The notes below the pieces were generated by a model, which was not told where the DNA came from, made no database searches, and worked only from the letters and a program-made list of their open reading frames with translations. Shown piece by piece: positions 25,344 to 56,852 of a stretch of DNA of 64,000 nt (positions within the stretch are counted from its first letter, which is position 1; each line of letters starts with the position of its first letter). Source of the stretch: Litoreibacter halocynthiae. Its GTDB lineage: Bacteria; Pseudomonadota; Alphaproteobacteria; Rhodobacterales; Rhodobacteraceae. The stretch spans positions 1-64,000 of the forward strand of contig NZ_SOBH01000005.1 of assembly GCF_004365635.1 (NCBI RefSeq), read 5' to 3'. The translations under genes were made by a program, and so were the position numbers.

Positions 25344-25345
25344 GG

Positions 25346-28161: not shown

Positions 28162-28827
28162 ATGTTGACCAGACGCCATTTCGTAATTTCCGCAGCCGCT
28201 CTATTTTCGCCCCCCATTTCAAGAGTAGCGTGGGCTGGTCCAACATCGGATCGATCTAAATGGTCGACTTGGGATGCGCAGGTCACACCTGCCGACTATG
28301 ATCCCGCGACGTCAAATCCTTGGGGTTTTCACCGACGGTTTTTGCCACAACGTGTTGAGGCAAATGCAGGCCTGATACCCGGCGATATTCATGTCGATGC
28401 GGTTGCAAGGTATCTCTATCACATCGGAGATGATGGGACGGCGATGCGCTACGGGGTCGCGATCGCGCGAGGAAATCTCTACGAGCCGGGAACCTATTCG
28501 ATCCGTCGGAAGGCGAAGTGGCCTGTCTGGACGCCGACCGCGGCCATGATCGAGCGCGACCCTGATCTATACCAACAACACGCAGAGGGTGTGAATGCAG
28601 GTCCTAAGAATCCTCTCGGCTCGCGTGCTTTGTATTTATATGTTGGAAACAGAGATACCTATTTGCGCATCCATGGAACTCCAAGTCCAAAATCCATCGG
28701 GGGCCGCGCCAGTTCGGGGTGTGTTCGTATGGCGATGGTCCATATCAATGGACTTTATGAGCAGGTATCTACCGGATCGACGGCGTATTTGTATCCACCC
28801 GAAGATCAGATATCGGCAAAAAGCTAA
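28162..28827 (+). CDS. L,D-transpeptidase, YkuD family (1)
   Basis: 221 residues from the ATG at 28162 (MLTRRHF), giving a Tat-type signal. The YkuD catalytic block RIHGTPSPKSIGGRASSGCVRM has the conserved His and the S-x-G-C nucleophile Cys. Such enzymes make 3-3 peptidoglycan crosslinks or attach lipoproteins to the wall. It is about 75 percent identical by eye to the copy at 50176, and both face a small lipoprotein gene on the opposite strand. Copper is known to inhibit L,D-transpeptidases, which may explain extra copies here. Confidence 0.92.
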   Translation: MLTRRHFVISAAALFSPPISRVAWAGPTSDRSKWSTWDAQVTPADYDPATSNPWGFHRRFLPQRVEANAGLIPGDIHVDAVARYLYHIGDDGTAMRYGVAIARGNLYEPGTYSIRRKAKWPVWTPTAAMIERDPDLYQQHAEGVNAGPKNPLGSRALYLYVGNRDTYLRIHGTPSPKSIGGRASSGCVRMAMVHINGLYEQVSTGSTAYLYPPEDQISAKS

Positions 28828-28884
28828 GTATGCTTGCACGGATTTGAGTGTACCGGTAATTGCTCTAAAAAAGGGCCTGCCTGT

Positions 28885-29166
28885 TTAAGTGGTCTCAGGA
28901 AAGCGTGTACAAATTGGCCTGCCATTTTTTGCGCGCAGCGGTAAGAATGTAGTCTCGACCTTTCCGATGTGGCGATATTCGTAGCAACCGTCCAATGGGT
29001 TGATCTGTACGGCTTTCAGGTCTTGGAATGGGGCGACGATCTCAAGCACACCTTCAGGTAATTCAGCAATAAACGGATTTGACTGCTCGCTGCCACCGCT
29101 CTGAATACCACCACAAGATGCGAGCAATAAAGCCGTCCCTCCAAATAACCAGACTGAGGTCTTCAT
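28885..29166 (-). CDS. Small lipoprotein of unknown function, partner of L,D-transpeptidase (1)
   Basis: 93 residues from the ATG at 29166 (AGGAAGG nine bases upstream). Lipobox LLASC near residue 18. The C-terminal half DGCYEYRHIGKVETTFLPLR and the closing RPIC are shared with the lipoprotein at 50872-51159, including two non-lipid Cys. It is convergent with the transpeptidase, 57 bases apart. I do not recognise a family. The two Cys could form a disulfide or bind metal. Confidence 0.8.
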   Translation of the reverse strand: MKTSVWLFGGTALLLASCGGIQSGGSEQSNPFIAELPEGVLEIVAPFQDLKAVQINPLDGCYEYRHIGKVETTFLPLRAKNGRPICTRFPETT

Positions 29167-29311
29167 ATACGACACCTTCCTTAATGCATTGAATATGATT
29201 GATTTTTATCGGGAATACTAGCCAAATTAGAGCGCATGCGCCTCAACTTTCAAGTTTGAAACGCATGGCTCGATAAAGCGAAGCGTTGTTGTATTTATTG
29301 GCCAGAATAAA

Positions 29312-30379: not shown

Positions 30380-31033
30380 TTAGGGTCTGCCCAAAAGCTG
30401 GGTCGACCCGACAGATAGCAGAGTCACCACAAATACGAAGGCGGCACAAAAACCAAGGGTCGCAACCAGCGCTCTCCGCCCCTGCAACAGTGCAAGATAG
30501 CAAACGAAGGCGCCGGGCAGGGCGCTGTAGAGATACACACCAGAGAGGTTCTTGAAAAAAAATGCGCGCTCGAGTGTGGGGCCGATAACTTGCAATGCGG
30601 CCTTGCGATTTCCGCCAAAGGAGGCGAATAGATCTGCGGACATAACGTAGATTATCGCGTGCAGAGCAACAAAAAGCAGTGAACGGGAAAGCACGTCTGC
30701 GAGCAAGTGGCGAAGGCTGTTGCCTTTCCCTTGCCGTTGGAAATGGGAAAACGCGAAAAAGCCCACGTAATTGATCGCAAAAACCATCATAATACCGTTG
30801 GTCAAAACTTGCCGCATGAACCGAGCAAGCGCGGCCTCGTTTGCGATCAGCATCGCGCCCAAACCGGGTGAAAGCCCAATATAAATCAGCAAAAACGGAA
30901 ACAAGCTAAACACGCTGAAAATCAGAACGTTCCAGCAAAAGCGCACAAATGGTAGGTCAGTGTCGAAAAATCTGTTTAGGAAAGACGACCAGAACAAGTT
31001 AGCTGTGTCTCGCGAAGACCTGCGTTGAGCCAT
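30380..31033 (-). CDS. Multi-pass membrane protein of unknown function
   Basis: About 217 residues if started at the ATG 31033. Five to six hydrophobic segments, a coupling with the DUF411 gene through a ~35-base overlap, and no recognisable family. Segments such as FALNYVGFFAFSHFQ-like AINYVGFFAFSHF and LLFVALHAIIYVMSA contain His in or near membrane helices. The longer open frame upstream is out of frame inside the DUF411 gene and is ignored. A true start a little downstream is possible. Confidence 0.6.
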   Translation of the reverse strand: MAQRRSSRDTANLFWSSFLNRFFDTDLPFVRFCWNVLIFSVFSLFPFLLIYIGLSPGLGAMLIANEAALARFMRQVLTNGIMMVFAINYVGFFAFSHFQRQGKGNSLRHLLADVLSRSLLFVALHAIIYVMSADLFASFGGNRKAALQVIGPTLERAFFFKNLSGVYLYSALPGAFVCYLALLQGRRALVATLGFCAAFVFVVTLLSVGSTQLLGRP

Positions 31034-31448
31034 CCTTGAGGACGAGCACCACATCGTAAGCCTCGCGCGCACCGCCCATGTCCATTCCGGGAGAGCCCAT
31101 CGGCATCCCCGGCACAGCAATTCCGCGCGCCTCTGTTGCATTCGCGAGTAGTCGCCGGATGTCTTCGGCAGGAACGTGGCCTTCGATGAAATAATCACCA
31201 ATCGTTGCCGTATGGCAGCCTTCCAGATCCGGTGTGATACCAAGTCGGTCTTTCAAGGCATAAAGCGTGTCTTGGTCAACGTCTTGGGTGTCGACGGCAA
31301 ACCCAGCCTCGCGCATCTGCTCAACCCACGCAGTGCAACATCCACAGGTCGGTGATTTTGCGACTTTTAACGTTGATGTTCCCGCAGCAAGGGCGGGGCG
31401 GACGACGAGGAAGCTCGCCGTGGCTATAAGGAAATGTCGTTTGTGCAT
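30999..31448 (-). CDS. DUF411 periplasmic metal-binding protein
   Basis: 149 residues with signal peptide. The DUF411 signature SPTCGCCTAWVEQM is at about residues 32-45, and a Met-rich segment (VPGMPMGSPGMDMGG) follows at about 112-126. DUF411 proteins (CopG-like) occur in copper-resistance operons and are thought to reduce or bind Cu in the periplasm. Cotranscribed with the membrane protein downstream; divergent from the two-component regulator. Confidence 0.9.
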   Translation of the reverse strand: MHKRHFLIATASFLVVRPALAAGTSTLKVAKSPTCGCCTAWVEQMREAGFAVDTQDVDQDTLYALKDRLGITPDLEGCHTATIGDYFIEGHVPAEDIRRLLANATEARGIAVPGMPMGSPGMDMGGAREAYDVVLVLKDGSTQVFARHS

Positions 31449-31583
31449 GTGCTGGTCCTTCCGATAAGCAATACTTAGTCTGGAACTGCCGAAAAGTCGA
31501 GTATGGTGCCCATCAAGCGCCTGTTACATTTGGCTACAAAAGCAGCCTGGGTGTTTTCGAAACTCATTGGGTATAAAGCCGGC

Positions 31584-32303
31584 ATGAAAGACATTCCACA
31601 TATCCTAGTCGTCGACGACCATTCAGAGATCCGTAACTCTGTTTCGACTTATCTAGAGCGGAACGGGATGCGCACGTCTAGCGCCGAAAACGCAGCGGAT
31701 ATGGAAGTGAAACTTGCCCGAGCGCAGTTTGATTTGATCGTTTTGGATGTGATGATGCCGGGTGAGGACGGCTTGAGTGCATGTAAGCGATTGCGACAAG
31801 ACGGCACTACACCTGTTCTCTTGCTCACAGCGCTAGGAGACGATGATGACCGAATTGCTGGACTTGACGGCGGTGCTGATGACTATTTGGCGAAACCTTT
31901 CAACCCAAGGGAATTACTCGCTCGGATCAATGCGATTCTGCGCCGTACGCAAAACGTTCCGCAGACCGAAACTCTTTCAGGAAAGACGGTCAAGTTTGCT
32001 CACCTCGAACTTGATTTTGATGGACGCACTTTGAAAGACACGGACGGGGGCCGCACACTATTGACCTCAGGTGAGTTGAAGTTGCTTGGTATTTTACTTG
32101 AACGAGCTCGCCAGGTTCTGAGCCGCGATGAATTGTTGTACTTGAGCACCGGGCGCACCGCTGGGCCGCTCGATCGCACGATTGACAATCATATCAGTCG
32201 GTTACGTCGAAAGATCGAGAAAGATGTCTTGCGGCCCCGAGTAATTGCAACAGTTCGAAACGGAGGCTACAGCCTGACTTGCGACGTTGAGGTTCAACCA
32301 TGA
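31584..32303 (+). CDS. OmpR-type response regulator, CopR/CusR-like
   Basis: 239 residues from the ATG at 31584 (MKDIPHILVVDDH). Receiver domain with acidic pair DD near residue 11, phospho-acceptor Asp in LIVLDVMMPGEDG (~54) and Lys in DYLAKPF (~104), then an OmpR winged helix (TSGELKLLGILLERARQVLS, then RTIDNHISRLRRKIE). Its stop overlaps the kinase ATG (ATGA). Given the copper genes around it, a Cu-responsive pair is likely. The sequence alone does not fix the signal. Confidence 0.92.
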   Translation: MKDIPHILVVDDHSEIRNSVSTYLERNGMRTSSAENAADMEVKLARAQFDLIVLDVMMPGEDGLSACKRLRQDGTTPVLLLTALGDDDDRIAGLDGGADDYLAKPFNPRELLARINAILRRTQNVPQTETLSGKTVKFAHLELDFDGRTLKDTDGGRTLLTSGELKLLGILLERARQVLSRDELLYLSTGRTAGPLDRTIDNHISRLRRKIEKDVLRPRVIATVRNGGYSLTCDVEVQP

Positions 32304-33754
32304 AGGCGGTGTCGCTGAGGTTACGCACGCAGATCGCACTTCTCGTTCTGGGCGTGCTTATTGTAGCGCAGGCCCTCAGTCTGTGGCTTTTTGTCGACGA
32401 ACGCAGTTTGGCCGTTCAGGCTGCCATCGGTGCCGAGGCCGCAGGGCGCGCGGCAAATGTGGCGCAGTTGATTGAAGGCGCCCCCTCGGATTTACATGCT
32501 CAGATTATCAGTGCCGCGACGTCGCCACTTGTCCGGTTTGATCTTTCCGACCAACCAAAGGTTACACACGAGCACTTCAACCAAGGCATCGCAGTTGAAG
32601 CCCGCGTTCGCGCCTTGCTTGGTGACAGCTACAGCCGCGACATCCGAGTTGAAGTCCATGAAACCGAGCAAGGCCTGCTTCCACTGCCGAACCTTTCGCC
32701 GGAAATGGCCGAAATGCATGCTGAGATGATGCAAGGTAGGTTAGCCGCGATCGAAATGGAGCTCTCTATCGCTTTGGCTGGTGGGCAATGGTTGAACGTC
32801 GGAACCCGGTTCGAACGCCCACCGCTTCAATGGTCTCTGGCCTCGAACGTGTCATTCGCAATTACAGCGGCTTTGCTGTTGGTTGTAAGTTTTTGGTTTT
32901 TATTGACCCGATTAACGGGCCCGCTGAATACCTTAGCTGAAGCTTCAGACCGTCTGGGGCGAGGTGCCCGGAAAGGGCCGTTACCTGTCGTCGGGCCTAA
33001 AGAAGTTCAAGATCTAACACGCGCATTTAACACAATGCAGGATCGCCTGACTCGGTTCGTATCCGACCGCACGCAGATGTTGGCAGCACTGGCGCACGAT
33101 CTGCGGTCACCTCTAACGGCGCTAAGAGTTCGCGCAGAAATGGTCGAGGATGGCGAAACCCGTGAATCGTTGATTGCTTCAAGCGAAGAGATGCAACAGA
33201 TGGTTGAAGCCACGTTGGACTTCGCGAAGGGCGTAGGTCAACACGAAGAAGTTCTTCCGACCAATTTGAATGACTTGATGGCGGGCTTTGAGGCGCCGGA
33301 ATTGTCCTTGCTGAGTGACAAGGACTTGGTTGTTCCGGTCAAACCGGGCGCGATGCGGCGGGCGCTTCGGAACTTAACCGAAAATGCCATGCGATATGGA
33401 AAAGAAGCCCGTGTGTCTTGGCAGGCAGTGGGTTCCGACGCAGATATTTTCGTGGATGACGATGGCCCAGGCATACCGGACAGTGAATTAGAGACAGTTT
33501 TTAGCCCCTATGTGAGGCTCGAAACGTCACGCTCGCGTAATACCGGAGGTCACGGATTAGGTCTTTCAATCGCGCGAAGCATTATTCTGGAGCACGGTGG
33601 GTCGATTGAATTGTTAAATAGGCCTGAGGGTGGATTGCGTGCGCGGATCCGGTTACCACTAGAGTTGCACACGCAAACTGTCGCGACAGAGAGCTTAGTT
33701 GAACCTAAGAGCGATGGTCAGGATATCGATGTTCGTATCTCTCTGAAAACATAG
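32300..33754 (+). CDS. Sensor histidine kinase, CopS/CusS-like
   Basis: 484 residues: two membrane helices (about 12-30 and 190-210) bounding a ~160-residue periplasmic sensor, HAMP, HisKA with AHDLRSPLTALRVRAEM, and HATPase with N box ENAMRYG, G1 DDDGPGIPD and G2 GGHGLGLSI. The sensor has few Cys but contains Met/Glu clusters (LSPEMAEMHAEMMQG), which could bind Cu. Cotranscribed with the regulator. Confidence 0.92.
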   Translation: MKAVSLRLRTQIALLVLGVLIVAQALSLWLFVDERSLAVQAAIGAEAAGRAANVAQLIEGAPSDLHAQIISAATSPLVRFDLSDQPKVTHEHFNQGIAVEARVRALLGDSYSRDIRVEVHETEQGLLPLPNLSPEMAEMHAEMMQGRLAAIEMELSIALAGGQWLNVGTRFERPPLQWSLASNVSFAITAALLLVVSFWFLLTRLTGPLNTLAEASDRLGRGARKGPLPVVGPKEVQDLTRAFNTMQDRLTRFVSDRTQMLAALAHDLRSPLTALRVRAEMVEDGETRESLIASSEEMQQMVEATLDFAKGVGQHEEVLPTNLNDLMAGFEAPELSLLSDKDLVVPVKPGAMRRALRNLTENAMRYGKEARVSWQAVGSDADIFVDDDGPGIPDSELETVFSPYVRLETSRSRNTGGHGLGLSIARSIILEHGGSIELLNRPEGGLRARIRLPLELHTQTVATESLVEPKSDGQDIDVRISLKT

Positions 33755-33811: not shown

Positions 33812-33830
33812 TTGAGCGATACATATCATT
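33812..33830 (+). promoter_or_regulatory. Repeated 19-bp motif upstream of the cytochrome/oxidase operon
   Basis: TTGAGCGATACATATCATT; 17 of 19 bases match a site at 42351-42369. TTGAGC may be a -35. It lies 88 bases before the operon start and just after the kinase gene, so it is a candidate target of that two-component system. Confidence 0.45.
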
Positions 33831-33917
33831 ACAAAATTTAGTCACCCATTCTATTTAGAAAAGTGCATCAAACAAGTAACTTGCGGCAATCGCAGGAGCC
33901 TGAATGAGGTACGTCAC

Positions 33918-34487
33918 ATGTCAACGGAAATAAGAAAAGTAGATCGCCGTGGGTTTATCGGAAGTGCCAGCGCGGCCGCATTGTTCGCGCCTTCACTCTT
34001 ACGCGCGCAAGAGCAGTCAAGCGTTCGCCGGAACGTGTCATCATTCCTAACCCACCAGTGGCAGGACCATTTTGACAAAATCGGGAAAGGTATTTTGTTA
34101 TCTGACACCAATACCATGGTTTTGCAGCATTGGACCGCCGATGGTGAAATGCGCATATACCCAACATCAGTACCGCTGTCGGACGACCTGACCAAACGAG
34201 GTTACACCGAAGTGGTCGACAAGCGTGTCGCGCCCGGTTGGGGCCCGACGCCAGCCATGCGGATACGCAATCCCGAGTGGCCGGCGTATATTCAAGGCGG
34301 CGATCCTTTGAACCCGCTTGGGTCGCATGCGATCTACCTGTCATGGCAATACTACCGCATCCACGGCACTCAGGATACGCGCAAGATTGGGCGCAAATCG
34401 TCAAATGGTTGTATCGGCTTATATAATGAGCATATTGCTGAGGTGTTTTCTCGGACACCTGTCGGAACCCAGGTGAAGCTTCTTTAA
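33918..34487 (+). CDS. L,D-transpeptidase, YkuD family (2)
   Basis: 189 residues with a Tat-type start (VDRRGFIGSASAAALFAPS). The YkuD block YRIHGTQDTRKIGRKSSNGC, ending IGLYNEH, has the conserved His and Cys. It is a different subtype from copies 1 and 3. First gene of an operon with cytochromes and a multicopper oxidase; its stop overlaps the next start by one base. A wall-crosslinking enzyme within an electron-transfer operon is unusual. Confidence 0.92.
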   Translation: MSTEIRKVDRRGFIGSASAAALFAPSLLRAQEQSSVRRNVSSFLTHQWQDHFDKIGKGILLSDTNTMVLQHWTADGEMRIYPTSVPLSDDLTKRGYTEVVDKRVAPGWGPTPAMRIRNPEWPAYIQGGDPLNPLGSHAIYLSWQYYRIHGTQDTRKIGRKSSNGCIGLYNEHIAEVFSRTPVGTQVKLL

Positions 34488-34942
34488 TGGCAAAGTCAGG
34501 ACTATTTATTTCAGCTTTTCTGTTTGTCGCTGGAGCTGCAATCGTCTGGCAACAGTTGCAGCCCGTGCCCTCGGGTGCGCATTCGATGACGCCTCCAGAC
34601 TTGTCCGATGTTTCCGAAGGCGGGGCGATTGTACAGGTCACAATTCCTCCTGAGTTCTCCTCCAACGCTCAGATCGGAAAACGTGTATTCGATGGCAAAT
34701 GTGCGGACTGCCACGGCGCGAATGCGGCAGGCCAAAATGGCGTTGCTCCACCGCTGGTACACAAGATTTACGAACCAAGTCACCACGGCGACAGCTCATT
34801 TATATTGGCTGCAAAAAACGGGGTGCGAGCACACCATTGGCGGTTTGGCAACATGCCCGCGGTCGAGGGCTTAACTGACGCGGATGTAAAAATGGTCGTG
34901 GCTTACGTGCGCGAGTTGCAGCGGGCCAACGGGATAAATTAG
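34487..34942 (+). CDS. Monohaem c-type cytochrome (1)
   Basis: 151 residues: signal/anchor helix, one haem site CADCH near residue 73-77, and a Met in HWRFGNMPAVEGLTD as likely sixth ligand. Class I fold. Starts at the last base of the transpeptidase stop codon. It may carry electrons from the oxidase product side or from Cu(I). The partner is inferred from operon position. Confidence 0.9.
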   Translation: MAKSGLFISAFLFVAGAAIVWQQLQPVPSGAHSMTPPDLSDVSEGGAIVQVTIPPEFSSNAQIGKRVFDGKCADCHGANAAGQNGVAPPLVHKIYEPSHHGDSSFILAAKNGVRAHHWRFGNMPAVEGLTDADVKMVVAYVRELQRANGIN

Positions 34943-34961
34943 CAAAACAAGGATATGGGTT

Positions 34962-35531
34962 ATGAGAGCAAGAGTTTGGATAATTTCCACAGTTATTGCG
35001 TCGATAGGCGTTGCAGCCTTTGCGCATAATGGGGCAACCGGTATCGTCAAAGAACGCATGGATGGTATGTCCGCAATGGGCAAAGCCGTTAAGGTGCTGA
35101 CACCGATGATGCGCGGGAAAACATCCTACGACGCGGACCAAGTGCGCGCTTCGGCAGATGTGATGATTATGCATTCAGGTGAACAGATGACGCGTCTGTT
35201 CCCTGAGGGCACCGGGGCTAAGCCATCGTCAGCCTTGCCAACTGTTTGGGAAGACTGGGATGGTTTTGCTGAATTGGCGGAAAATTTGAAAAGCTATGCC
35301 GAGGGTATGAAACTGGGCGCCGATATTGGTCTAGCGAACGCTGCGGGGCAGCAAAGCTCTTCAATGATGGGGGGGGCGGCGAGCGGTTCCATGGGCGGCG
35401 GCATGATGGGCGGCGCTGAACAAGCAATGACACCTGAAATGTTTGCCGCGATGCCATCGGACAGAGCCTTTGCGGCTGTGGCGCAGACGTGTTCCGCATG
35501 TCATCAGAAATTCCGCGCGGAGGAAAACTGA
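34962..35531 (+). CDS. Cytochrome c' family protein (class II)
   Basis: 189 residues with signal peptide. The haem site CSACHQKFR is near the C-terminus, as in class II four-helix cytochromes, and early ERMDGMSAMGKAVK contains the expected Met. A Met/Gly-rich insert (SSSMMGGAASGSMGGGMMGG, ~125-146) is unusual and could bind Cu(I). These cytochromes bind NO or act as electron carriers. Confidence 0.9.
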   Translation: MRARVWIISTVIASIGVAAFAHNGATGIVKERMDGMSAMGKAVKVLTPMMRGKTSYDADQVRASADVMIMHSGEQMTRLFPEGTGAKPSSALPTVWEDWDGFAELAENLKSYAEGMKLGADIGLANAAGQQSSSMMGGAASGSMGGGMMGGAEQAMTPEMFAAMPSDRAFAAVAQTCSACHQKFRAEEN

Positions 35532-35535
35532 TCCA

Positions 35536-36426
35536 ATGCGAGTTTGGATGTGGTTGCTTTTAGCTGGAGCATGCACTGGCCTTGGAGTTATCGCCGCGAC
35601 TGCCGTATGGCCAATTGGCATCGGAGTAGCAGGGATCACGCAATTAGGAGACGTCGAACGCGGTGCTTATTTGGCGCGCGCAAGCGGATGTATAGCTTGC
35701 CACACAAACGCAGAAGTGGGTGGTGCGCCATTGGCAGGGGGTGCGCCTTTGAAAACAGACTTCGGTAGGTTTTATCCACCAAACCTGACAACAGATGTCG
35801 AGTTTGGGATAGGGGGCTGGACAGTCGATGAGTTTGCGAAAGCAGTTCGGCAGGGAATTTCGCCAGACGGAGAGCCCTACTATCCAACCTTCACGTACCC
35901 GTTCTACGCCAACTTTACGGATCAGGACGTCGCAGATCTTTGGGCGGCATTTCAGACGGTTCCAGCTGTCAATGAGGCGGCACTGCCACACGATACTTCA
36001 TTTCCGTTCGATCAGCGTTGGGGGCTAAAACTCTGGCGTGCGGCCTTCCTTGCCCCAACAAATGTAGAGCCCGTTCAGGGCAAGAGTGATGCCTGGAATA
36101 GAGGGAAACTCCTTGTCAGGGGGGCTGCACATTGCGCAGCATGCCACACGCCGCGCAACCTTGCCGGTGCAAGGATTGCATCCAAACGTTTCACGGGCAA
36201 TGCGCTGCTTCCGGTTGGAGGCAAAGCGCCCTCCATCTTGCCTGAGGATCTTTTGGCCGAAGGGTGGTCTGTGGATGATTTGGCCTATGCGCTTCGGTCT
36301 GGAATTACTCCATCTGGCGATGTTTTCGGAGGCTCTATGGCCGAAGTTGTCAAATTTGGAACCGGTTTCCTAAGTGATGATGACCTAGAGGCCATGGCGA
36401 CCTATGTCATGGATAGTGATATCTAA
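35536..36426 (+). CDS. Dihaem c-type cytochrome
   Basis: 296 residues from the ATG at 35536. N-terminal membrane anchor, then two class I haem domains with CIACH (~52-56) and CAACH (~200-204). It resembles the cytochrome subunits that accept electrons from periplasmic dehydrogenases. The longer frame from 35443 runs inside the previous gene. It sits four bases after the cytochrome c' stop and precedes the oxidase. Confidence 0.9.
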   Translation: MRVWMWLLLAGACTGLGVIAATAVWPIGIGVAGITQLGDVERGAYLARASGCIACHTNAEVGGAPLAGGAPLKTDFGRFYPPNLTTDVEFGIGGWTVDEFAKAVRQGISPDGEPYYPTFTYPFYANFTDQDVADLWAAFQTVPAVNEAALPHDTSFPFDQRWGLKLWRAAFLAPTNVEPVQGKSDAWNRGKLLVRGAAHCAACHTPRNLAGARIASKRFTGNALLPVGGKAPSILPEDLLAEGWSVDDLAYALRSGITPSGDVFGGSMAEVVKFGTGFLSDDDLEAMATYVMDSDI

Positions 36427-36439
36427 AAGGGGGCAATCT

Positions 36440-37828
36440 ATGCTCAGACTTAACCGACGCCAGTTTTTAGCATCCGCTGCTTCGTTTGCAACTTTACCCG
36501 TTGGCGCATCTTTAGCGTCCTCTGATCCAATTGACCTTAATGCGCAGGTTGCTGACCTTCAGTTGTTGCCGAACGGATATGGGAAGACGTCAATTTGGGG
36601 CTTTGAAGGGATGACACCCGGGCCAGAAATCCGGCTCGGACAAGGGCAGCGCGTGCAACGTCGGTTGGTGAACGCCCTACCAGACCCTACCTCTGTTCAT
36701 TGGCACGGTATCCGAATTGATAATGCAATGGACGGTGTCTCTGGCTTGACGCAAGCAGCGGTGCCGCGCGGTGAAACGTTCGATTATGATTTCATAGCGC
36801 CTGACGCAGGAACCTATTGGTATCACGCCCATAACCGATCATTTGAACAAGTCGCCCGCGGGCTGGCCGGGGCATTGATTGTTGAAGAAGCTGATACAAT
36901 TGACGTGGACCGAGAAGAGGTTCTGATCCTCGATGATTGGTTACTTGACCCCGATACGGCCCAAATCGTGAGTGATTTCGCGGCACCCCACGCAAGGAGC
37001 CATGGGGGCAGAATTGGAAATTTCGTTACAACCAATGGCATCTATAATTTGGCATTGAATGCGCGGCAAAACGAACGGATGAGGCTGCGCATAATCAATG
37101 CGTCTAACGCCCGGGTTTTTCCCTTACGACTAGATGGCTTGGAAGGGTGGACTGTTGCCTTGGATGGAATGCCGCTTTTGAAGCCGGAACCTGTTACGGA
37201 AACGATCATTCTGGGGCCTGCTCAACGCATTGACCTGATTGTTGATGTCGTGGCCAGCGAAGGAGAGGCCGCACATGTCGTCCATCTGGGCCAATCCGAC
37301 GCCGCCAGTCAGGTTGCTTTTGAAGTTAGTTCTGGCGGTGCTGCCACGCGCCGTGGTGCGCCAGCGCCCCTGCCACCGAATGCACATCAGATGGTTGATC
37401 TTAGCAAAGCCAAAGCGATGCCCTTGAAGATGGAAGGCGGCGCGATGGGAGGGCTTCGATCCGCGACCTTGGATGGCGAGACTAAGTCTATGGCCGAGAT
37501 CGTCGAGGCAGGTCGGTATTGGGCCTTTAACGGAGCAGCTGATGGGCGAGACGGTCCAGCCTTTACAAAGCTTTCGCAAGGCGAGCATGTCCACCTTACC
37601 ATTGCCAACGACACGGCATTTCCGCACGCAATGCATCTGCATGGCATGCATTTTCACGAAGTCAATGCGGATGGAAGCCTCGGGCCGTTGCGGGATACAA
37701 CTCTGATCGAGAGAGGAAATAGTCGCGATATTGCGTTTGTCGCTGACAATCCTGGAAAGTGGTTGTTGCATTGCCACATGCTGTCCCACGCGGCGTCTGG
37801 CATGAGCACATGGATTGATGTGGCATGA
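36440..37828 (+). CDS. Periplasmic multicopper oxidase (2)
   Basis: 462 residues from the ATG at 36440, with Tat signal (LNRRQFLASAASFATLPVG). Copper ligands: HWHGIRIDNAMDG, YWYHAHNRS, HAMHLHGMHFH and LLHCHMLSHAASGM. It is related to copy 3 at 44881 (shared AMDGV and RIGN blocks). It ends with an overlap into the next cytochrome gene (ATGA). Together with the cytochromes it could oxidise Cu(I) and pass electrons on, or reduce oxygen directly. Confidence 0.93.
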   Translation: MLRLNRRQFLASAASFATLPVGASLASSDPIDLNAQVADLQLLPNGYGKTSIWGFEGMTPGPEIRLGQGQRVQRRLVNALPDPTSVHWHGIRIDNAMDGVSGLTQAAVPRGETFDYDFIAPDAGTYWYHAHNRSFEQVARGLAGALIVEEADTIDVDREEVLILDDWLLDPDTAQIVSDFAAPHARSHGGRIGNFVTTNGIYNLALNARQNERMRLRIINASNARVFPLRLDGLEGWTVALDGMPLLKPEPVTETIILGPAQRIDLIVDVVASEGEAAHVVHLGQSDAASQVAFEVSSGGAATRRGAPAPLPPNAHQMVDLSKAKAMPLKMEGGAMGGLRSATLDGETKSMAEIVEAGRYWAFNGAADGRDGPAFTKLSQGEHVHLTIANDTAFPHAMHLHGMHFHEVNADGSLGPLRDTTLIERGNSRDIAFVADNPGKWLLHCHMLSHAASGMSTWIDVA

Positions 37829-38298
37829 GGCACCGACTTGCATATGGCGGGCTGGCCGCATTGGTTCTTGCGGCCGGATCTGCGATTGTTTGGGCAAATT
37901 CGCATGCTGATCTGCCGATTGCAGCAGACTTCCCTATCGATATTGCTAAAGGTGAGTCCCTGTATTTAGAGAGCTGCGCATCATGCCATGGCGCCAATCT
38001 GGAGGGCCAGGAAGATTGGCAAAGCCCTGGGGACGATGGTAAGTTAAAGGCCCCACCGCATGATGAGACGGGCCACACCTGGCACCATCCTGACAGCCTG
38101 CTTTTCACTTACACCAAACTTGGTGGAAAAGAGACTTTGGCGGCACAAGGCATGGAATTTAATAGCGGCATGCCGGGATTTGGGAATCAGCTCAGCAACC
38201 CGGAAATCTGGAGCATTATCGCTTACATCAAGTCAACATGGCCCGAACGGGCCCGTATGGTTCAGGCAGAACGGACAGCCGCAGACGATGGTTCATAA
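37825..38298 (+). CDS. Monohaem c-type cytochrome (2)
   Basis: 157 residues with signal/anchor helix, haem site CASCHGANLEGQ (~52-56), and a Met in FNSGMPGFG as probable axial ligand. Coupled to the oxidase by a four-base overlap, suggesting a direct redox partner. Confidence 0.9.
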   Translation: MRHRLAYGGLAALVLAAGSAIVWANSHADLPIAADFPIDIAKGESLYLESCASCHGANLEGQEDWQSPGDDGKLKAPPHDETGHTWHHPDSLLFTYTKLGGKETLAAQGMEFNSGMPGFGNQLSNPEIWSIIAYIKSTWPERARMVQAERTAADDGS

Positions 38299-38308
38299 GG
38301 GAAATGAT

Positions 38309-39342: not shown

Positions 39343-39373
39343 TTGAGCTTCCAGTAGCTGGAATCCATATCGG
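39343..39373 (+). promoter_or_regulatory. CueR-type promoter of the second copper ATPase
   Basis: TTGAGC (39343-39348), 19 bases, TATCGG (39368-39373), with CTTCCAGTAGCTGGAA dyad. The mRNA would start some 20 bases before the ATG at 39401. Confidence 0.85.
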
Positions 39374-39400
39374 TTGAGGTGGAAACCAAAGGAATTACCA

Positions 39401-41911: not shown

Positions 41912-41920
41912 GAGCTTAGA

Positions 41921-44719: not shown

Positions 44720-44880
44720 TCGGATCGGCTCAATCAATGAAAACAGTAAAGTGATGCATACACCAAAGCGGCATACTTGAAGAGGACAGAAATGTATCAA
44801 AATGTCAGTCCAAGCGTCCCTTACTTCTGGCGGCTTTATATGGTTCAATCCAGCGAATTCTTTCCGAAGGCTCGCTCCGC

Positions 44881-49851: not shown

Positions 49852-50175
49852 CAGGGAAGATTAATAAATGAAACTCTTTGAGTGCCGCGAAGCAATCAAG
49901 ACTTTTTTGAGTACCTGCATCAATCAATACGATCTATATGATGAACGTTGACCAACATACGAAACAAGCGTGCCCGAAGTTGCTTTAAACCCGACTTTCC
50001 TCAATTAGGTGTAAAATTTAATGTGCCAGCTGTGATGAACATGTTGCTCACTAAATTTTGATCACGAGACGAGATAACAACTTGAACCTACAGCTGCTTG
50101 AGGTTGTATATTTAACAAATTGACCTTGTTGGCGAAAGAGCCCAGCGCGTTCAAAAATTTGCGGGAGACTGATCA
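49852..50175. other. Gene-free region before L,D-transpeptidase (3)
   Basis: 324 bases between the IS and the next gene. It contains a strong MerR-type promoter at 50082-50112. A 27-codon frame at 49868-49951 is too weak to call. AT-rich compared with its neighbours. Confidence 0.5.
50082..50112 (+). promoter_or_regulatory. MerR-type promoter of L,D-transpeptidase (3)
   Basis: TTGAAC (50082-50087), 19 bases, TATATT (50107-50112). The overlapping dyad fits ACCTNNAGCNGCTNNAGGT. Its arms differ from both operator classes elsewhere. The mRNA would start about 57 bases before the ATG. Confidence 0.6.
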
Positions 50176-51318: not shown

Positions 51319-52728
51319 CTAGCGATGCCCGATCCAGCCACGATCGTCCGTGAAGGGGCTGCTTGCCGCCAGTGTCGTAACCATAAAATCAGCAGGCAAC
51401 CGGTCGAGTGGCGCGAGCGGCGTGGGCGAGGCCGTCAGGATGAAATTAGCATAGCCACGCGCACTTACAGGTCCGACTACCGCCGTTACATACGGATAAA
51501 GTTGCGTCAGGATCGCATGGGTTCCACGTACAAGTTGCCCGTTTGGCTCATCGATAAGGTTCACATACACTGGCCCGGTGACGATCTCGCGCAGGCGCTG
51601 ATAAGTTTCCAAAGTAACCAGATGTGCAGGGACAGATCCGGATGAAAATGCATCCATGACAACCGCATCAAACTGGCGTTCTGTTTCGTTTATATACCTT
51701 CGCCCGTCCGCATGCACTATTTCGAGCCGCCTGTTATCTTTTATCACCGACGCGGCCCAAGGGAAATTCTCTTGCACCACCGCAGTCACGAGCGGATCAA
51801 TCTCAACCGCCACCGCCCGTGCATTCGGGCGCATACTCAACAACTGACTTGGCAATGTATACCCACCGCCACCCACAAACAGAACGTTCGCACTCGTGGG
51901 CAAATCATGTGACATGCGCGCCCACAGCATTTGCGTATAATTCAGAACCAGCGGATCTTCCTGCGAAGGAGTATTATCAGAATTTATTCGCTCGGCTGCT
52001 TGAGCGATGCGATCTGAAAACAGGTGTAATTCACCGTCCCGATAACCGACATCGATGCACGATAAGCCTGATTCATACCGGCAGACCGACCCGTTTGCGA
52101 AGCTCAACGCAATGATCAATCCTGCTGGTGCGATGATCTCTAATATGGACTGCGGGCCACCACGCACAAAAGACACGCACATTAGAGCCACAGCCCCGCA
52201 TCCCGCAAAGGTCAGCGCCGAACCCACTATTGGCAAGGCGACAAATCCGGCAAGAACCGCCCCTAAAATAGCGCCCAGCGAACCCGCAGCCAGTACAATA
52301 CCCAGTGATGATCCCTCTCTCCCTGGCCGCGCTTCTACAGCCAGCTTCGCCAAATAGGGAGAAGGGAAGCTAACCAGTACTGACGCGGGAAAGAAAGCGA
52401 CGATAACCGAAAGGATCATTCCACCAGTGCCTCGCGCTCCTAGCCCATACAGCATCGACAGGATCATCGGTGAGAGCGCCATTAGTAGCGCCGTTGCGAT
52501 CAGGGCCCGCCGGACGAGCTGTGCCGCCACATCTCTCTCGCGTTCCGCAATCAGCCCGCCGAGTGCGCTACCGAATGAAAACCCTGCCAAAACTGTCGCG
52601 ATTACTGTGGTCCACGTAACGAGCGACGTCCCAAAAAACGGCGCTAATACACGGCCCGCCGCAATCTCATACGTGAGCCCAACTGCGGACAAAACTAGAA
52701 TAAGGCCGACTGTCTCCCAAAACCGCAT
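51319..52728 (-). CDS. Membrane-fused spermidine-synthase-like protein
   Basis: 469 residues from the ATG at 52728 (GGAG upstream). The N-terminal ~190 residues have six or seven membrane helices; the C-terminal half is a Rossmann methyltransferase-like fold (NVLFVGGGGYTLPSQLL, VAVEIDP, HADGRRYI, VVMDAFSSGSVPAHL) like spermidine synthases. True aminopropyltransferase activity is uncertain for this fused type. It precedes the decayed IS6 element; no copper link is visible in the sequence. Confidence 0.85.
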   Translation of the reverse strand: MRFWETVGLILVLSAVGLTYEIAAGRVLAPFFGTSLVTWTTVIATVLAGFSFGSALGGLIAERERDVAAQLVRRALIATALLMALSPMILSMLYGLGARGTGGMILSVIVAFFPASVLVSFPSPYLAKLAVEARPGREGSSLGIVLAAGSLGAILGAVLAGFVALPIVGSALTFAGCGAVALMCVSFVRGGPQSILEIIAPAGLIIALSFANGSVCRYESGLSCIDVGYRDGELHLFSDRIAQAAERINSDNTPSQEDPLVLNYTQMLWARMSHDLPTSANVLFVGGGGYTLPSQLLSMRPNARAVAVEIDPLVTAVVQENFPWAASVIKDNRRLEIVHADGRRYINETERQFDAVVMDAFSSGSVPAHLVTLETYQRLREIVTGPVYVNLIDEPNGQLVRGTHAILTQLYPYVTAVVGPVSARGYANFILTASPTPLAPLDRLPADFMVTTLAASSPFTDDRGWIGHR

Positions 52729-52796
52729 GACAGCTCCATGTTTCGCGTACACGCGCGATACATGGGCATCGCACGAGCCGCAATAACGCCCTGATC

Positions 52797-53658
52797 GGCA
52801 CTGTTGCATTATTTTCGATGTGGCCTGATGCTGGGGGAATTGTTTACAGGAGTTCGCCATGACCGGCGGAGATCCATTCAAACATCACCGTTTCCCGCAA
52901 GACGTGATCTTGCTGGCGGTGCCCTGGTAGTGTCGATATCCGCTGTCCTATCGCGATGTGCGGGACCTGCTCGCTGAGCGCGGTATCGCAGTAGACGCAG
53001 CAACAGTCTACCGTTGGGTACAAAAGTTCGGTCCTGAAATTCGTAAACACGCCTATGGTCGACATCGCTCATGGCGTGGTTTGCAATGGCATGTGGACGA
53101 AACCTACGTGCGGGTGAATGGTCCCCTCTCATCGCTGCAAGCAGCGACTGCCGGGCAGTGGATGGTGCTATCTGTGGCGGGCTGTCGATCAGCGTGGGCA
53201 ATTGATTGACTTCCGGCTGACCGCACGACAAAACTCCAAAGCCGCAAGGGCCTTCATGCGACAGGCCTGCGATACTGTCCGCTGCTACAAACCAATGACG
53301 ATCATCACCGACAAAGCCCACAGCTATGCCAAGGTCATCCGAGAAATGAATTTCGGAAACGGGCCGAATGACGCAATCATTCATGTTGATCGCAAGCACC
53401 TGAACAATCGGATCGAGGGCGATCAGGGCGCTCTCAAACAATTGCTCCGACCAAAGCGTGGCTTCCGACAACTGACCGCAGCAAAGAATACCCTCAAAGG
53501 CATTGAAACTCACTGCGCGATAAAGAAGGGTCACTTCGCAAACAACGAGCCTGGCGTGCTCAACGAAGTTGCCTTCGTCGCAAAACTCTTCACGAAGGCA
53601 GCATGATACGATCGCCAACAGCCGTCTCCAGTTCCACATTAACTAGGGCAACAGAACC
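52797..53658 (+). mobile_element. Decayed IS6-family insertion sequence
   Basis: About 860 bp. Ends GGCACTGTTGC (left) and GGTTCTGTTGC (right, inverted) are related but imperfect. The 8-bp flanks do not match. It differs in sequence from the IS6 element at 11782. The transposase is broken. Confidence 0.75.
52859..53606 (+). pseudogene. IS6-family transposase pseudogene
   Basis: From ATG 52859 (MTGGDPFKHHRFPQDVILLA) a TAG stop interrupts codon 24 (52928-52930), where a Tyr is expected before CRYPLSYRDV. About 40 extra bases near 53118-53158 shift the frame between VRVNG and WCYLWRAVDQRG. The remaining blocks (HVDETYVRV, IITDKAHSY, NNRIEGDQGALK) keep the DDE residues. It cannot make an intact protein. 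Confidence 0.88.
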
Positions 53659-53869: not shown

Positions 53870-53900
53870 TTGAACCTCTAGTTACTGTAGAATGTATGCA
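53870..53900 (+). promoter_or_regulatory. Divalent-metal MerR promoter of the Zn/Cd-type ATPase
   Basis: TTGAAC (53870-53875), 19 bases, TATGCA (53895-53900). Spacer dyad CTCTAGTTACTGTAGA is like ZntR/CadR operators. It overlaps an earlier in-frame ATG at 53896, which supports the start at 53932. Confidence 0.85.
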
Positions 53901-53931
53901 AAGGGCATCATTGCGATTCCGAGGATACTTT

Positions 53932-56235
53932 ATGCCACATGATGCCGCTCATCACAGTCACGATCATTCTGAAAAAGCAGCCAAACCCGGCGGAAGCTGC
54001 TGCGGGGATGAAGCCGTCGCACAGACACAGATACAGCCTACCGACGGCCGAAGTTTTTACGTCAGCGGTTTGGACTGTGCTGAAGAGGTGTCAATCCTGA
54101 ACCGTGTCGTGGGACCCGAGGTCGGCGGCATAGAGTATCTGGCGTTTGATGTGATAAACGCGCGGATGACAGTCTTGGATGGCGGAAGCGACTCATCCTC
54201 GGACAGAATCATCAAGCTGGTTGCGACCACCGGAATGACAGCCAAAACTTGGAACGCCGAGGATGCCAACACGGAACAGGCCGCGCATCTGAAAACCCAG
54301 AAACGCTTTACAGCGTTGAGCGGCGGCTTTTGGGCGGCCGGTTTCATATACCATGTTGTCGAGACCGGGTTTGGTGGCGCCATCGGATTGTTTGCAGGCC
54401 ATGGTGAGGCGCCGATGCCAGTGGCCGAAGCGGGACCATTCGCGGTGGCCATCCTGTTTGGCGTATGGCTCGTTGCCCCAAAAGCTTGGTCGTCCGCACG
54501 CCGTTTTTCTCCGGATATGAATTTGTTGATGGTCGTGGCCGTGGCCGGTGCCATCGGGCTCGAAGAGTTTTTCGAGGCCGCAACAGTGGCATTCTTCTTC
54601 TCGCTCTCGTTGTATCTCGAAAGCTGGAGTGTTGGGCGCGCGCGCAATGCTATCTCGGCGCTGCTTGATCTCGCGCCCCCGACGGCGCGGGTACTTTATG
54701 ACGATGGCTCGGAAGCGGACGTTCCCGCCGCGGCGGTTGCTGTCGACGCGCGGTTCATTGTGCGCGGCGGTGACCGTATTCCGCTCGACGGAGAAGTGGT
54801 TGACGGAGCGGGAGCCGTCGATCAAGCTCCTATCACTGGCGAAAGTGCCTTGGTGCCAAAAGAGGCTGGCGATGAGGTCTATGCCGGCACGATCAATGGT
54901 GATGGCACGCTGACGGTACGGGCGACGAAGGCCGCCTATGACACGGTGCTATCCAAGATCATCCGCATGGTGGACGACGCCCATTCCCGAAGGGCAGAGG
55001 TCGAGCAATGGGTGACGAAATTTGCCCGTATCTACACACCGGTCGTGATGGCGCTTGCTATTCTCATAGCACTTCTGCCGCCTCTTGTGGCCGGCGGTGA
55101 CTGGGGTTTTTGGTTCTATAACGCGCTGGTGCTTCTGGTCATTGCCTGCCCTTGCGCCCTGGTGATCTCAACGCCCGTCTCCATTGTTGCAGCCCTTGCG
55201 TCATCGGCGCGCAACGGCGTGTTGATCAAGGGCGGGGCCTATGTAGAAGCGCCGGGTCGCACCACAGCGATTGCCATGGACAAGACCGGCACGATCACGA
55301 TGGGGGAGCCCGAAGTGGCCGGTGTATACCCAATTGGCGAAATATCGGAACGCGATCTTCTGATGCGCGCCGCAGCGCTCGAAGCGCGGTCCTCCCACCC
55401 GCTGGCAAGGGCGATCCTTAGCCGCGCGGGGCGGGACAACATTTCCTTCGCTTCCGCTGACAACACACGCACGGTCCCGGGTCGCGGGCTTGAGGGCGAG
55501 ATGAGCGGCATGTCTATCTGGCTAGGATCGGACCGCTTTGCAAAGGAAAAAGGATTCGGGTTTACCATCCCACCAGAGCTGCGTGACCAGATTGAAGGAG
55601 CTGGAAACACTCTTGTGGCAGTTGGGGACGACAGTGGTGTCAGCGGCGTGCTGGAACTGCGTGACCAGATACGTCCCGACGCCAAGGGGATCGTTGCGCG
55701 GCTCCACGCCCAAGGGGTCAAAAAGATCGTGATGCTGACAGGCGACAACGCGGCAACGGCACGGGCGGTGGCAGCCGAAGTGGGCATAGACGAGGTGCGC
55801 GCCGAACTCCTGCCAGAGGACAAGGTAAACGCTATTGAGGAATTGGTGGCAGAGCATGCCACTGTCGCGATGATTGGAGATGGCGTGAACGATGCCCCGG
55901 CAATGGCGCGCGCGCATTATGGCATCGCGATGGGCGCTGTCGGGTCAGACGCTGCGATTGAAACCGCTGATATTGCGCTGATGACCGACGACATTGGCAA
56001 AGTGCCTTGGCTAATCGGGCATTCCCGCCAGGCCATGTTGATCATCAAGCAGAACATTGGTTTGTCACTTGCTACCAAAGCCGTCTTCGTCGTCGCGACA
56101 GCGTTCGGCATGGCCTCAATGTGGGGCGCGATCGCTGCTGACGTCGGCGTGTCGCTCCTCGTTGTCGCCAACGCGTTGCGCTTACTGAATGCGCGAGACG
56201 ATCAACCAGGAACACAAGATGACACAACTGGATAG
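53932..56235 (+). CDS. Zn/Cd/Pb-type P1B ATPase, ZntA-like
   Basis: 767 residues from the ATG at 53932. The N-terminus is His-rich (HDAAHHSHDHSE) with GGSCCGDE (Cys23, Cys24), followed by a degenerate HMA-like domain with only one Cys (GLDCAEE, Cys49). Transport motif CPC at 406-408, phosphorylation Asp450, [20 protein letters not shown]. The pattern is that of Zn/Cd/Pb exporters, not copper ones. The operator upstream matches the regulator at 60635. Confidence 0.93.
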   Translation: MPHDAAHHSHDHSEKAAKPGGSCCGDEAVAQTQIQPTDGRSFYVSGLDCAEEVSILNRVVGPEVGGIEYLAFDVINARMTVLDGGSDSSSDRIIKLVATTGMTAKTWNAEDANTEQAAHLKTQKRFTALSGGFWAAGFIYHVVETGFGGAIGLFAGHGEAPMPVAEAGPFAVAILFGVWLVAPKAWSSARRFSPDMNLLMVVAVAGAIGLEEFFEAATVAFFFSLSLYLESWSVGRARNAISALLDLAPPTARVLYDDGSEADVPAAAVAVDARFIVRGGDRIPLDGEVVDGAGAVDQAPITGESALVPKEAGDEVYAGTINGDGTLTVRATKAAYDTVLSKIIRMVDDAHSRRAEVEQWVTKFARIYTPVVMALAILIALLPPLVAGGDWGFWFYNALVLLVIACPCALVISTPVSIVAALASSARNGVLIKGGAYVEAPGRTTAIAMDKTGTITMGEPEVAGVYPIGEISERDLLMRAAALEARSSHPLARAILSRAGRDNISFASADNTRTVPGRGLEGEMSGMSIWLGSDRFAKEKGFGFTIPPELRDQIEGAGNTLVAVGDDSGVSGVLELRDQIRPDAKGIVARLHAQGVKKIVMLTGDNAATARAVAAEVGIDEVRAELLPEDKVNAIEELVAEHATVAMIGDGVNDAPAMARAHYGIAMGAVGSDAAIETADIALMTDDIGKVPWLIGHSRQAMLIIKQNIGLSLATKAVFVVATAFGMASMWGAIAADVGVSLLVVANALRLLNARDDQPGTQDDTTG

Positions 56236-56342
56236 ATGAACAGACGACCAAAGGTGCACTAGCACACGGACGTTGATTGTGGACTGACTTGGCGATATCA
56301 AGTTGCTAGAAAAGACCTCAAACAATGAGGCATCAAGCCGTG

Positions 56343-56852
56343 ATGATTAAAAAAAATCCTAGACGGTTCTTCCTTGCGGGCGGCATGGCTGCCGTCCTTT
56401 CTGGATGTGCAAGCAAATTTCGATCCTACAGCGGTCCAGAAGTCACTCGCATTCGCCTTTATAAGTCGGACAGACTGCTGGTTCTGGACGGTTCGCAGGG
56501 TGTGTTGAGCACTTATCCGGTCGGCCTAGGATTCTCTCCGACGGGACATAAGCAGTTTGAAGGGGACGGGCGGACGCCGGAAGGCACCTACACTATTGAT
56601 CGCCGCAATCCAAATAGCTTGTTCCACCTGTCTATTGGCATTTCCTATCCAAATGAGGCGGACATCGCATTTGCTAAGGCGCAAGGCCAATCTCCCGGTG
56701 GCGACATCTTCATCCACGGGGGTCCGCGATGGGGCATCGACCCGCTGAACAAGCGAGACTGGACTGCCGGATGCATTTCGGTCACCGACCGGCAGGTCGA
56801 AGAAGTCTATGCGATGGTGCGCGACGGCACGCCCATAGAAATCTACGCCTGA
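56343..56852 (+). CDS. L,D-transpeptidase, YkuD family (4), lipoprotein form
   Basis: 169 residues from the ATG at 56343 (or 175 from 56325). A signal with lipobox LSGC near residue 20 (RRFFLAGGMAAVLSGCAS) predicts a lipid anchor. YkuD blocks PEGTYTIDRR, FIHGGPRWGIDPL, and DWTAGCISVTDRQ carry the conserved His and Cys. It is a distinct subtype from the other three. It follows the ATPase gene after 107 bases; no metal operator was found there. Confidence 0.9.
   Translation: MIKKNPRRFFLAGGMAAVLSGCASKFRSYSGPEVTRIRLYKSDRLLVLDGSQGVLSTYPVGLGFSPTGHKQFEGDGRTPEGTYTIDRRNPNSLFHLSIGISYPNEADIAFAKAQGQSPGGDIFIHGGPRWGIDPLNKRDWTAGCISVTDRQVEEVYAMVRDGTPIEIYA

Follow-up and report, generated by a model that had tools for sequence, protein, structure and literature searches.

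We analysed the first 64 kb (64,000 bases, here called the window) of the 111,608-base contig C5 of Litoreibacter halocynthiae, in which four genes for L,D-transpeptidases (LDTs) of the YkuD family lie in an island of metal genes. We found that LDT genes are firmly linked to copper or zinc/cadmium genes in Rhodobacteraceae. This linkage, the partition of the LDT subtypes between the two metal types, the conserved gene order and the operators described below were all computed here. Our preferred explanation, to which we give a probability of about 45%, is that the four YkuD enzymes are working parts, that is spare metal-induced envelope enzymes, of a mobile island for copper and zinc/cadmium tolerance. 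The four genes are:

28162-28827, plus strand: LDT_A1, YkuD L,D-transpeptidase with a Tat-like (twin-arginine-like) signal; PF03734 70.3 bits (frame from 28141)
33918-34487, plus strand: LDT_B, YkuD L,D-transpeptidase; PF03734 66.7 bits
50176-50838, plus strand: LDT_A2, YkuD L,D-transpeptidase with a Tat-like signal; PF03734 74.7 bits
56325-56852, plus strand: LDT_C, YkuD enzyme with a lipobox-like start; PF03734 69.4 bits

All four frames are open, with Pfam YkuD scores of 66.7-74.7 bits (cut-off 23.4), and the catalytic His and Cys motif (HG...SxGC or HG...TAGC) is intact in each. The frame of LDT_A1 is already open at GTG 28141, and ATG 28162 is its probable start. An earlier note made from this sequence had listed the four genes by position and divided them into three subtypes. 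The genes are indeed all present and intact, with one start to be corrected: the frame of LDT_C begins at ATG 56325, and 56343 is an in-frame ATG six codons downstream. The three subtypes hold, LDT_A1 and LDT_A2 being 69% identical and LDT_B and LDT_C falling in separate parts of the tree. The 3.68-Mb genome (nine contigs) contains 10 YkuD genes, four on C5, four on C4 and two on C1. Because only 0.0004 clusters of four within 28.7 kb are expected among 10 genes, the clustering is not due to chance.

Neither the LDT_A alignment (49 rows) nor that of LDT_B (37 rows) shows any variation at the motif residues His, Gly, Ser, Gly and Cys. All four proteins have what we take to be a twin-arginine-like start, and LDT_C presumably also a lipobox-like Cys. 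The paired arginines hardly vary among the aligned LDT_A proteins and do not vary among those of LDT_B, and are therefore no island-specific feature. For LDT_A2 an AlphaFold2 model was obtained (pLDDT 89), and its structure matches are of the YkuD fold; such models confirm the fold and have no bearing on metal sensitivity. With the NCBIfam equivalogs of LdtE/ErfK type, LDT_A1 (66.9 bits vs 480), LDT_A2 (58.1 vs 480) and LDT_B (57.6 vs 517) stay below the cut-offs, as does LDT_C with the DpaA/LdtF/YafK amidase model NF040599 (35.7 vs 365). For YkuD enzymes such as these, crosslinking or protein anchoring is the putative activity. LDT_C may not be a crosslinker, because it resembles YkuD proteins of the DpaA/Pgp2 type.

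The earlier note had placed all four genes among copper genes. This is true of LDT_A1 and LDT_B, which lie in the copper part of the island, and not of LDT_A2 and LDT_C, which are tied to a zinc/cadmium-type exporter. The latter two are assigned to a zinc/cadmium block because the ATPase at 53896-56235 scores as Zn/Cd/Pb type: 504.6 bits with NCBIfam IB2_Cd (cut-off 313.5) against 385.5 bits, below the cut-off of 397, with the copper model. Its transmembrane motifs are also Zn/Cd-like, according to a signature that we assume to apply. A purely copper reading was rejected: our first count had assigned both this ATPase and the regulator gene at 60635 to copper, and the NCBIfam scores made the ATPase Zn/Cd type. 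The sequence motifs of both proteins presumably point to the same type.

Linkage to metal genes and conserved gene order

The family sample comprised 120 genomes (that of L. halocynthiae and 119 others of the family), searched with LDT_A2, LDT_C and LDT_B. Of the 120 stretches compared, 35 were chosen for LDT_A relatives, 20 for LDT_B/LDT_C relatives, 19 for core LDT_C-LDT_B pairs and one for a further LDT_B-like gene; the remaining 45 were chosen for other YkuD homologues, picked among the matches listed. Metal genes were defined by blastp (≥40% identity to window proteins) within 10 kb, and the window's own genes were excluded from the counts. Clades were delimited at identity thresholds of 60, 60.5 and 72%, chosen after the gaps were visible.

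Strict copper genes are found near 12 of the 13 LDT_B clade members vs 2 of 29 other LDT_B-like genes (p = 1e-7). LDT_C clade members are near Zn/Cd genes in 7/7 cases vs 0/19 for core LDT_C (p = 1.5e-6), and near strict copper genes in 0/7. For the LDT_A clade, 23/37 genes are near copper or Zn/Cd genes vs 10/62 others (p = 5e-6). Taken separately, the fractions are 15/37 vs 10/62 for strict copper (p = 0.009), a conservative contrast because the 10 other genes include island copies (L021-L023, L073, L105), and 14/37 vs 0/62 for Zn/Cd (p = 1.6e-7). The enrichment of YkuD genes near copper genes that the earlier note expected across genomes is therefore real in related genomes; it is not purely one of copper, members of the LDT_C clade being found with Zn/Cd genes and none of them near strict copper genes.

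A named set was assembled from the best 80 matches in genome_contigs, which gave 67 distinct loci and overlaps partly with the family sample (for example, L140, L142 and L162 are the contigs of L019-L021). Copper, zinc or copper-chaperone genes are present in 63 of these loci, strict copper genes in 37; three of the four loci without them are short. In 25 of the 67 loci (L156-L190), across many genera, LDT_A', MCO_3 and LDT_A2 sit in a near-uniform copper island. Its recurrent content is MCO_2, a cytochrome, ScsC, CopA, CueR, LDT_A', MCO_3, LDT_A2, an EF-hand protein and CopB.

A quick tree was made of 175 YkuD proteins. On it the label "near metal", which was taken from the first count and includes Zn/Cd-type genes, changes 20 times vs 49 times in shuffles (0/500 as low). 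Starred support was obtained for the LDT_C island clade (8/8 near metal) and the main LDT_B island clade (11/12), and an LDT_A clade of 22 has 17 members near metal. The LDT_C and LDT_B island clades nest in families mostly without metal neighbours, and at least three YkuD subfamilies therefore seem to have been recruited separately.

Gene order is conserved as well. The next annotated gene after LDT_B is a cytochrome in 13/13 clade members, and in the window, L047, L099 and L106, not in most others, the stop of LDT_B overlaps the start of the next gene (TAATG in the window). LDT_B is probably the first gene of the copper operon. Among LDT_A clade genes, 28 of 88 (named) and 6 of 37 (sampled) lie directly 5' of ZntA on the same strand, at a distance of ≤1 kb. 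LDT_C directly follows ZntA within 1 kb for 19 of 28 ZntA genes (named) and 5 of 11 (sampled). In the window LDT_C starts about 90 bases after ZntA, and a scan of this gap on the same strand returned no terminator-like site. LDT_A2 and ZntA, direct neighbours in many relatives, are parted in the window by a 3-kb stretch. Between them (51319-53639, minus strand) are a spermidine-synthase-like gene and an open reading frame without assigned family.

Predicted operators

We derived a MerR-type operator pattern, TTGAnCCTnTAGTnnCTAnA (≤3 mismatches), from the regions upstream of LDT_A genes. Operator counts for LDT_A are for this reason partly circular, which does not apply to sites before other genes. 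The pattern occurs 7 times in the window vs 0.39 expected, and 0/100 shuffles reach 7. Six of the seven sites precede metal or LDT genes and the seventh lies inside ccmF. The six sites and a candidate CopR site are:

18680-18699, minus strand: MerR-type operator before the CopB-like ATPase (pattern scan)
39343-39362, plus strand: MerR-type operator before CopA (pattern scan)
50082-50101, plus strand: MerR-type operator before LDT_A2: TTGAAC, 19-base spacer, TATATT (3 mismatches)
53870-53889, plus strand: MerR-type operator before the ZntA-type ATPase (pattern scan)
60511-60530, minus strand: operator before the SCO1 operon (pattern scan)
61103-61122, plus strand: operator before the transglutaminase/CDF genes (pattern scan)
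33820-33835, plus strand: candidate CopR site (direct repeat) before LDT_B (pattern scan; suggestive only)

The predicted sites show the layout of the MerR family, a dyad between TTGA and the -10 element with a 19-base spacer, a spacing that we take to be the rule for such operators. The site before LDT_A2 is among the weakest of the seven. The copper chaperones SCO1 and PCu(A)C apparently share the kind of MerR-type operator of the Zn/Cd exporter (60511-60530, minus strand).

Among the relatives, upstream regions that agree in all of their last 100 bases were counted once, and start codons were set by rule of thumb. The operator precedes 22/22 LDT_A genes in tandem with ZntA and 11/46 other LDT_A clade genes. 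Grouped by neighbourhood, it is found in 21/23 LDT_A clade genes near Zn/Cd genes only, 6/10 near both metal types and 4/18 near none. Among LDT_A paralogues, the fractions are 1/52 without and 0/12 with metal neighbours. LDT_B-like genes without metal neighbours (0/26) and core LDT_C (0/19) have no such site. In other islands, LDT_B-like genes with Zn/Cd neighbours have it in 2/4 cases, or 4/4 with ≤4 mismatches. Columns of the operator box have a mean conservation of 0.84 vs 0.44-0.47 in the flanks (16 upstream regions less than 75% alike). The regulatory signal predicted for the LDT_A-ZntA cassette is firm, and that of the window's LDT_A2 taken alone is weaker.

A copper operator was also sought for LDT_A1 and this candidate was dropped. 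The direct repeat of CopR type matches four times in the window (0.15 expected): besides the site before LDT_B, at 23213-23228 (minus strand), at 31525-31540 (plus strand) just within the regulator's frame as listed, and at 28629 (minus strand) inside LDT_A1. In relatives there are 43 matches, 5 of them before LDT_B and 35 before no gene matching window proteins; as an LDT_B site the repeat is suggestive. At least one plasmid LDT is probably switched on by a metal sensor. The overall interpretation of the earlier note is partly supported: copper inhibits LDTs, the genomic association exists in relatives, and a metal-type operator is predicted at one of the four LDTs.

The LDT genes might be mere passengers, carried along by plasmid islands and contributing nothing to metal tolerance. 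Consistent with this, 14/37 LDT_A clade genes are near neither type of metal gene, and LDT_A is common on plasmids: LDT_A2 relatives (E 1e-50) occur on 178 plasmid records, 105 of which are typed conjugative. A search for a neighbour common to the 15 metal-free LDT_A loci of the first count, which might account for them, found none of weight; shared groups link 4, 2 and 2 loci, after setting aside the LDT itself and one group resembling reading frames antisense to it. The fixed places of three subtypes in metal operons, the LDT stop codon that in some cases overlaps the start of the following operon gene, and the conserved metal-type operator all argue against passengers, which we regard as very improbable.

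Active sites and competing explanations

The claim that copper inhibits LDTs reportedly originates from Peters 2018, as related by citing papers. It is borne out by two reports: copper inhibits LdtD and, at an about sixfold lower concentration, DpaA (PMC8263019), and it inhibits LdtA of Vibrio cholerae (PMC11390936). The earlier note had suggested that the four genes may supply copper-resistant or replacement enzymes. Resistant isozymes would go on working where copper has already stopped the core enzymes. Inhibition of several LDTs by copper would favour such isozymes, and clade-specific changes do exist: Met replaces Asn five residues after the catalytic Cys in the LDT_A clade (LDT_A2 residue 191; 97% of 39 rows), and in 8/8 island LDT_C proteins the residues GIDP are inserted between the two catalytic motifs. 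The Met is also present in LDT_A members without metal neighbour, and LDT_A2 and LDT_C belong to the Zn/Cd block. In LDT_B, the subtype most closely linked to copper genes, the residues flanking the catalytic His and Cys do not vary among 37 island and other proteins and match those of the core paralogues. A copper-resistant active site was therefore rejected as a candidate: LDT_B has no discriminating change in the catalytic stretches, the changes in LDT_A and LDT_C do not track copper, and nothing in the sequences appears to mark copper resistance. We consider resistant isozymes improbable, a weaker rival than the wall reinforcement discussed below.

In our preferred explanation, spare LDT copies would be made when metal rises. 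Toxic metal would disable cysteine-dependent envelope enzymes or make them limiting, and the spares would replace them, the benefit coming from the extra dose and not from an intrinsically resistant active site. LDT_B, and probably LDT_A1 too, would serve the copper block, and LDT_A2 and LDT_C the zinc/cadmium block. Scs/Dsb reductants and the extra cytochrome c maturation set would be further spare or protective parts in the same compartment, as would the extra lnt, lspA and M23 genes of some sister islands. Metal induction, enzyme activity and the benefit of an extra dose are what we infer. DsbG protects the cysteine thiols of LDTs, and our literature search returned no title on it. Copper has been reported to impair lipoprotein acylation in Escherichia coli (PMC6538781).

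The companion genes were counted within 10 kb: thiol-redox or cytochrome c maturation (Ccm) genes accompany 27 of 57 island-clade LDTs vs 8 of 110 others. In the window a complete second ccmFGHI set adjoins LDT_A1; the set on contig C1 (L014) is 41-72% identical. The C1 locus itself groups ccmFGHI, a DsbD-like and a ScsC-like gene with an LDT_B-like gene. On plasmid pRLO149_83 of Roseobacter litoralis, lnt, lspA and an M23 peptidase gene lie beside LDT_A, ZntA and LDT_C (L206, 16064-20722), and the three genes are also found in the Zn/Cd blocks of L147, L192 and L205. Among 49 island-type loci lspA is present in 11, lnt in 6 and M23 in 5, vs 0 each in 65 controls; the named set (n = 67) has 7, 5 and 16, respectively. 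They are a minority feature of the islands, and neither the window nor the rest of contig C5 has a match to any of the three.

Several observations weigh against the preferred explanation. Apart from the 14 LDT_A clade genes without metal neighbours, the near-uniform island indicates that islands spread from genus to genus. The loci are therefore no independent samples, and the controls were unmatched for plasmid location. LDT_B relatives (E <1e-45) are found in only 3 of 192 genomes of the class, a sample that includes our own genome, the other two being of the same family. The 30 best loci around canonical CopA oxidases elsewhere in the class (1.5 kb either side, about 4.7 kb per locus) gave no YkuD match. 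This test is weak, because the profiles detect LDT_A and LDT_B readily and LDT_C barely, and they overlooked the two remote YkuD genes of our own genome in L012 and L015. Operators precede just 2/17 LDT_A clade genes near copper only, genes of the LDT_B clade (0/12) and the LDT_C clade (0/22) have none of their own, and the MerR-type pattern has no match upstream of LDT_A1. R. litoralis, whose pRLO149_83 carries relatives of LDT_A2, LDT_B and LDT_C, is more zinc- but less copper-tolerant than R. denitrificans (PMC3141670). A 102-kb plasmid of Dinoroseobacter shibae left copper, cobalt and zinc resistance unchanged and slightly raised that to silver (PMC9426580, which also mentions D. shibae derivatives cured of plasmids); 102-kb D. 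shibae plasmid records, probably of that plasmid, carry an LDT_B relative. Finally, copper was the sole tested metal salt to inhibit LDT activity of V. cholerae (PMC11390936), and the zinc/cadmium linkage is thus unexplained by copper inhibition.

The strongest rival, which we consider unlikely yet more probable than resistant isozymes, accounts for the Zn/Cd linkage as well as for copper. Metal would induce extra LD-crosslinks or the anchoring of proteins to the wall, block autolysins and stiffen a damaged envelope, whether or not housekeeping LDTs are inhibited. LDT_C looks nearer to hydrolytic YkuD types, whose activities we in part presume, and copper would inhibit the reinforcing enzymes themselves unless they are protected; both points speak against reinforcement. 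The M23 endopeptidase, lnt and lspA of some sister islands fit such general envelope work. Lytic transglycosylases are inhibited by LD-crosslinks (PMC11390936), and the proposed response would resemble that of E. coli, in which LdtD belongs to the Cpx regulon and copper or zinc can induce Cpx and/or Bae (PMC6863773).

The plasmid setting and what the linkage may mean

Contig C5 is, by its repABC genes, a RepABC plasmid. Window genes have relatives in other Rhodobacteraceae, among them Ruegeria, Roseovarius, Sulfitobacter and Dinoroseobacter. The composite metal island spans 16 to 63 kb of the window. Its left part is of copper type, with a CopB-like ATPase, three multicopper oxidases, CopRS-like genes, c-type cytochromes, a ScsC-like and a DsbD/ScsB-like protein, CopA, a CueR-like regulator and the extra ccmFGHI set. 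The right part is of zinc/cadmium type, with a ZntA-type ATPase, ZIP, two SCO1, PCu(A)C, DsbA/DsbB, a MerR regulator, a transglutaminase-like protein and a CDF exporter. The plasmid thus holds the parts expected of a copper-resistance operon, a Cu+ ATPase, multicopper oxidases (three) and copper sensors (CopRS-like and CueR-like), and appears from its gene content to be protective against toxic copper and zinc. The features are:

3732-7440, minus strand: repABC replication/partition genes (Pfam RP-C, RepB/ParB_N, AAA_31)
16308-18671, minus strand: CopB-like Cu+ P-type ATPase with HMBD domains (Pfam HMBD, E1-E2_ATPase)
20608-22050, minus strand: multicopper oxidase MCO_1 (Pfam Cu-oxidase)
23316-27530, plus strand: second cytochrome c maturation set, ccmF, ccmG-like redoxin, ccmH, ccmI (Pfam)
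30999-31448, minus strand: DUF411-like metal-binding protein (tblastn 49% to an R. litoralis DUF411 protein)
31503-33754, plus strand: CopR/CopS-like response regulator and histidine kinase (Pfam)
34487-39028, plus strand: c-type cytochromes, multicopper oxidase MCO_2 and ScsC/DsbA-like protein, 3' of LDT_B (Pfam)
39374-42316, plus strand: copper ATPase CopA and CueR-like regulator (NCBIfam IB1_Cu 600.9 bits; Pfam MerR)
42638-44848, minus strand: ScsB/DsbD-like thiol-disulfide reductase (Pfam DsbD_TM, DsbD_N, Thioredoxin_7)
44881-46167, plus strand: multicopper oxidase MCO_3 (Pfam)
53896-56235, plus strand: ZntA-type Zn/Cd/Pb P-type ATPase (NCBIfam IB2_Cd)
56887-60462, minus strand: ZIP transporter, SCO1, PCu(A)C, DsbA-like, DsbB, SCO1 (Pfam)
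60635-61063, plus strand: MerR-family regulator (Pfam MerR)
61163-62840, plus strand: transglutaminase-like protein and CDF metal exporter (Pfam)

In the CopB-like ATPase we read what we take to be the Cu+ signatures of transmembrane helices TM7 and TM8. The regulator at 60635-61063 has Cys where CueR has Ser, by which we presume it to be of Zn/Cd/Pb type. Two of the three multicopper oxidases of the window were compared with the CopA-oxidase model TIGR01480, and both score below its cut-off. An EF-hand protein with a Met/His-rich stretch at 22571-23140 (minus strand) is probably a periplasmic metal-binding protein. DUF1403 and ScpB-like genes adjoin a tyrosine recombinase gene on the plasmid (window 8821-10314).

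A mobile copper operon of Listeria and Enterococcus holds lit2 and lgt2 and is alike in that a copper-resistance operon carries a second copy of an envelope-maturation enzyme, copper-induced there (PMC8275575, PMC7387801). It differs in that its enzymes acylate lipoproteins and belong to Firmicutes, whereas those described here are peptidoglycan YkuD enzymes of Rhodobacteraceae, span copper and Zn/Cd blocks, and have an induction predicted from gene order and operators. In the Cpx-LdtD system of E. coli, too, a stress regulator that responds to copper and zinc among other signals controls an LDT gene (PMC6863773); that regulator is one of general envelope stress, whereas here plasmid genes lie by metal exporters, one of them with a MerR-type operator. 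Metal plasmids of the Roseobacter group (pRLO149_83, D. shibae plasmids) have similar gene blocks including LDT genes; the plasmid records NC_009955 and NC_009957 of D. shibae DFL 12, for instance, contain relatives of LDT_A and LDT_B. The papers on such plasmids discuss the metal genes, and "transpeptidase" is absent from the main text of the two searched for this word. The core LDT_C-LDT_B pair of Rhodobacteraceae consists of the same subfamilies, side by side in the 19 stretches picked for them, but its LDT_C lies within 10 kb of the tested copper or Zn/Cd genes in 0/19. Among titles and the starts of abstracts we found no report of an LDT-metal island association; reports elsewhere are possible.

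These findings suggest that shielding or rebuilding of the envelope is part of metal tolerance. More broadly, and with somewhat greater reserve than for the window itself, we propose that metal islands of marine Rhodobacteraceae hold a regulated set of spare parts for the envelope as a whole, covering L,D-transpeptidases, the maturation of lipoproteins and of cytochrome c, and thiol redox. Three YkuD subfamilies would have been recruited separately into copper or Zn/Cd regulons, and upkeep or remodelling of the wall would be a core arm of resistance. Transferable plasmids apparently carry this link between metal and wall along with a specific operator, and since the genes can be deleted in a laboratory bacterium the question is directly testable. 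If true, wall upkeep or remodelling stands beside efflux and oxidation as an arm of metal resistance, which would widen the latter from pumping and oxidising metal to the replacement of its targets.

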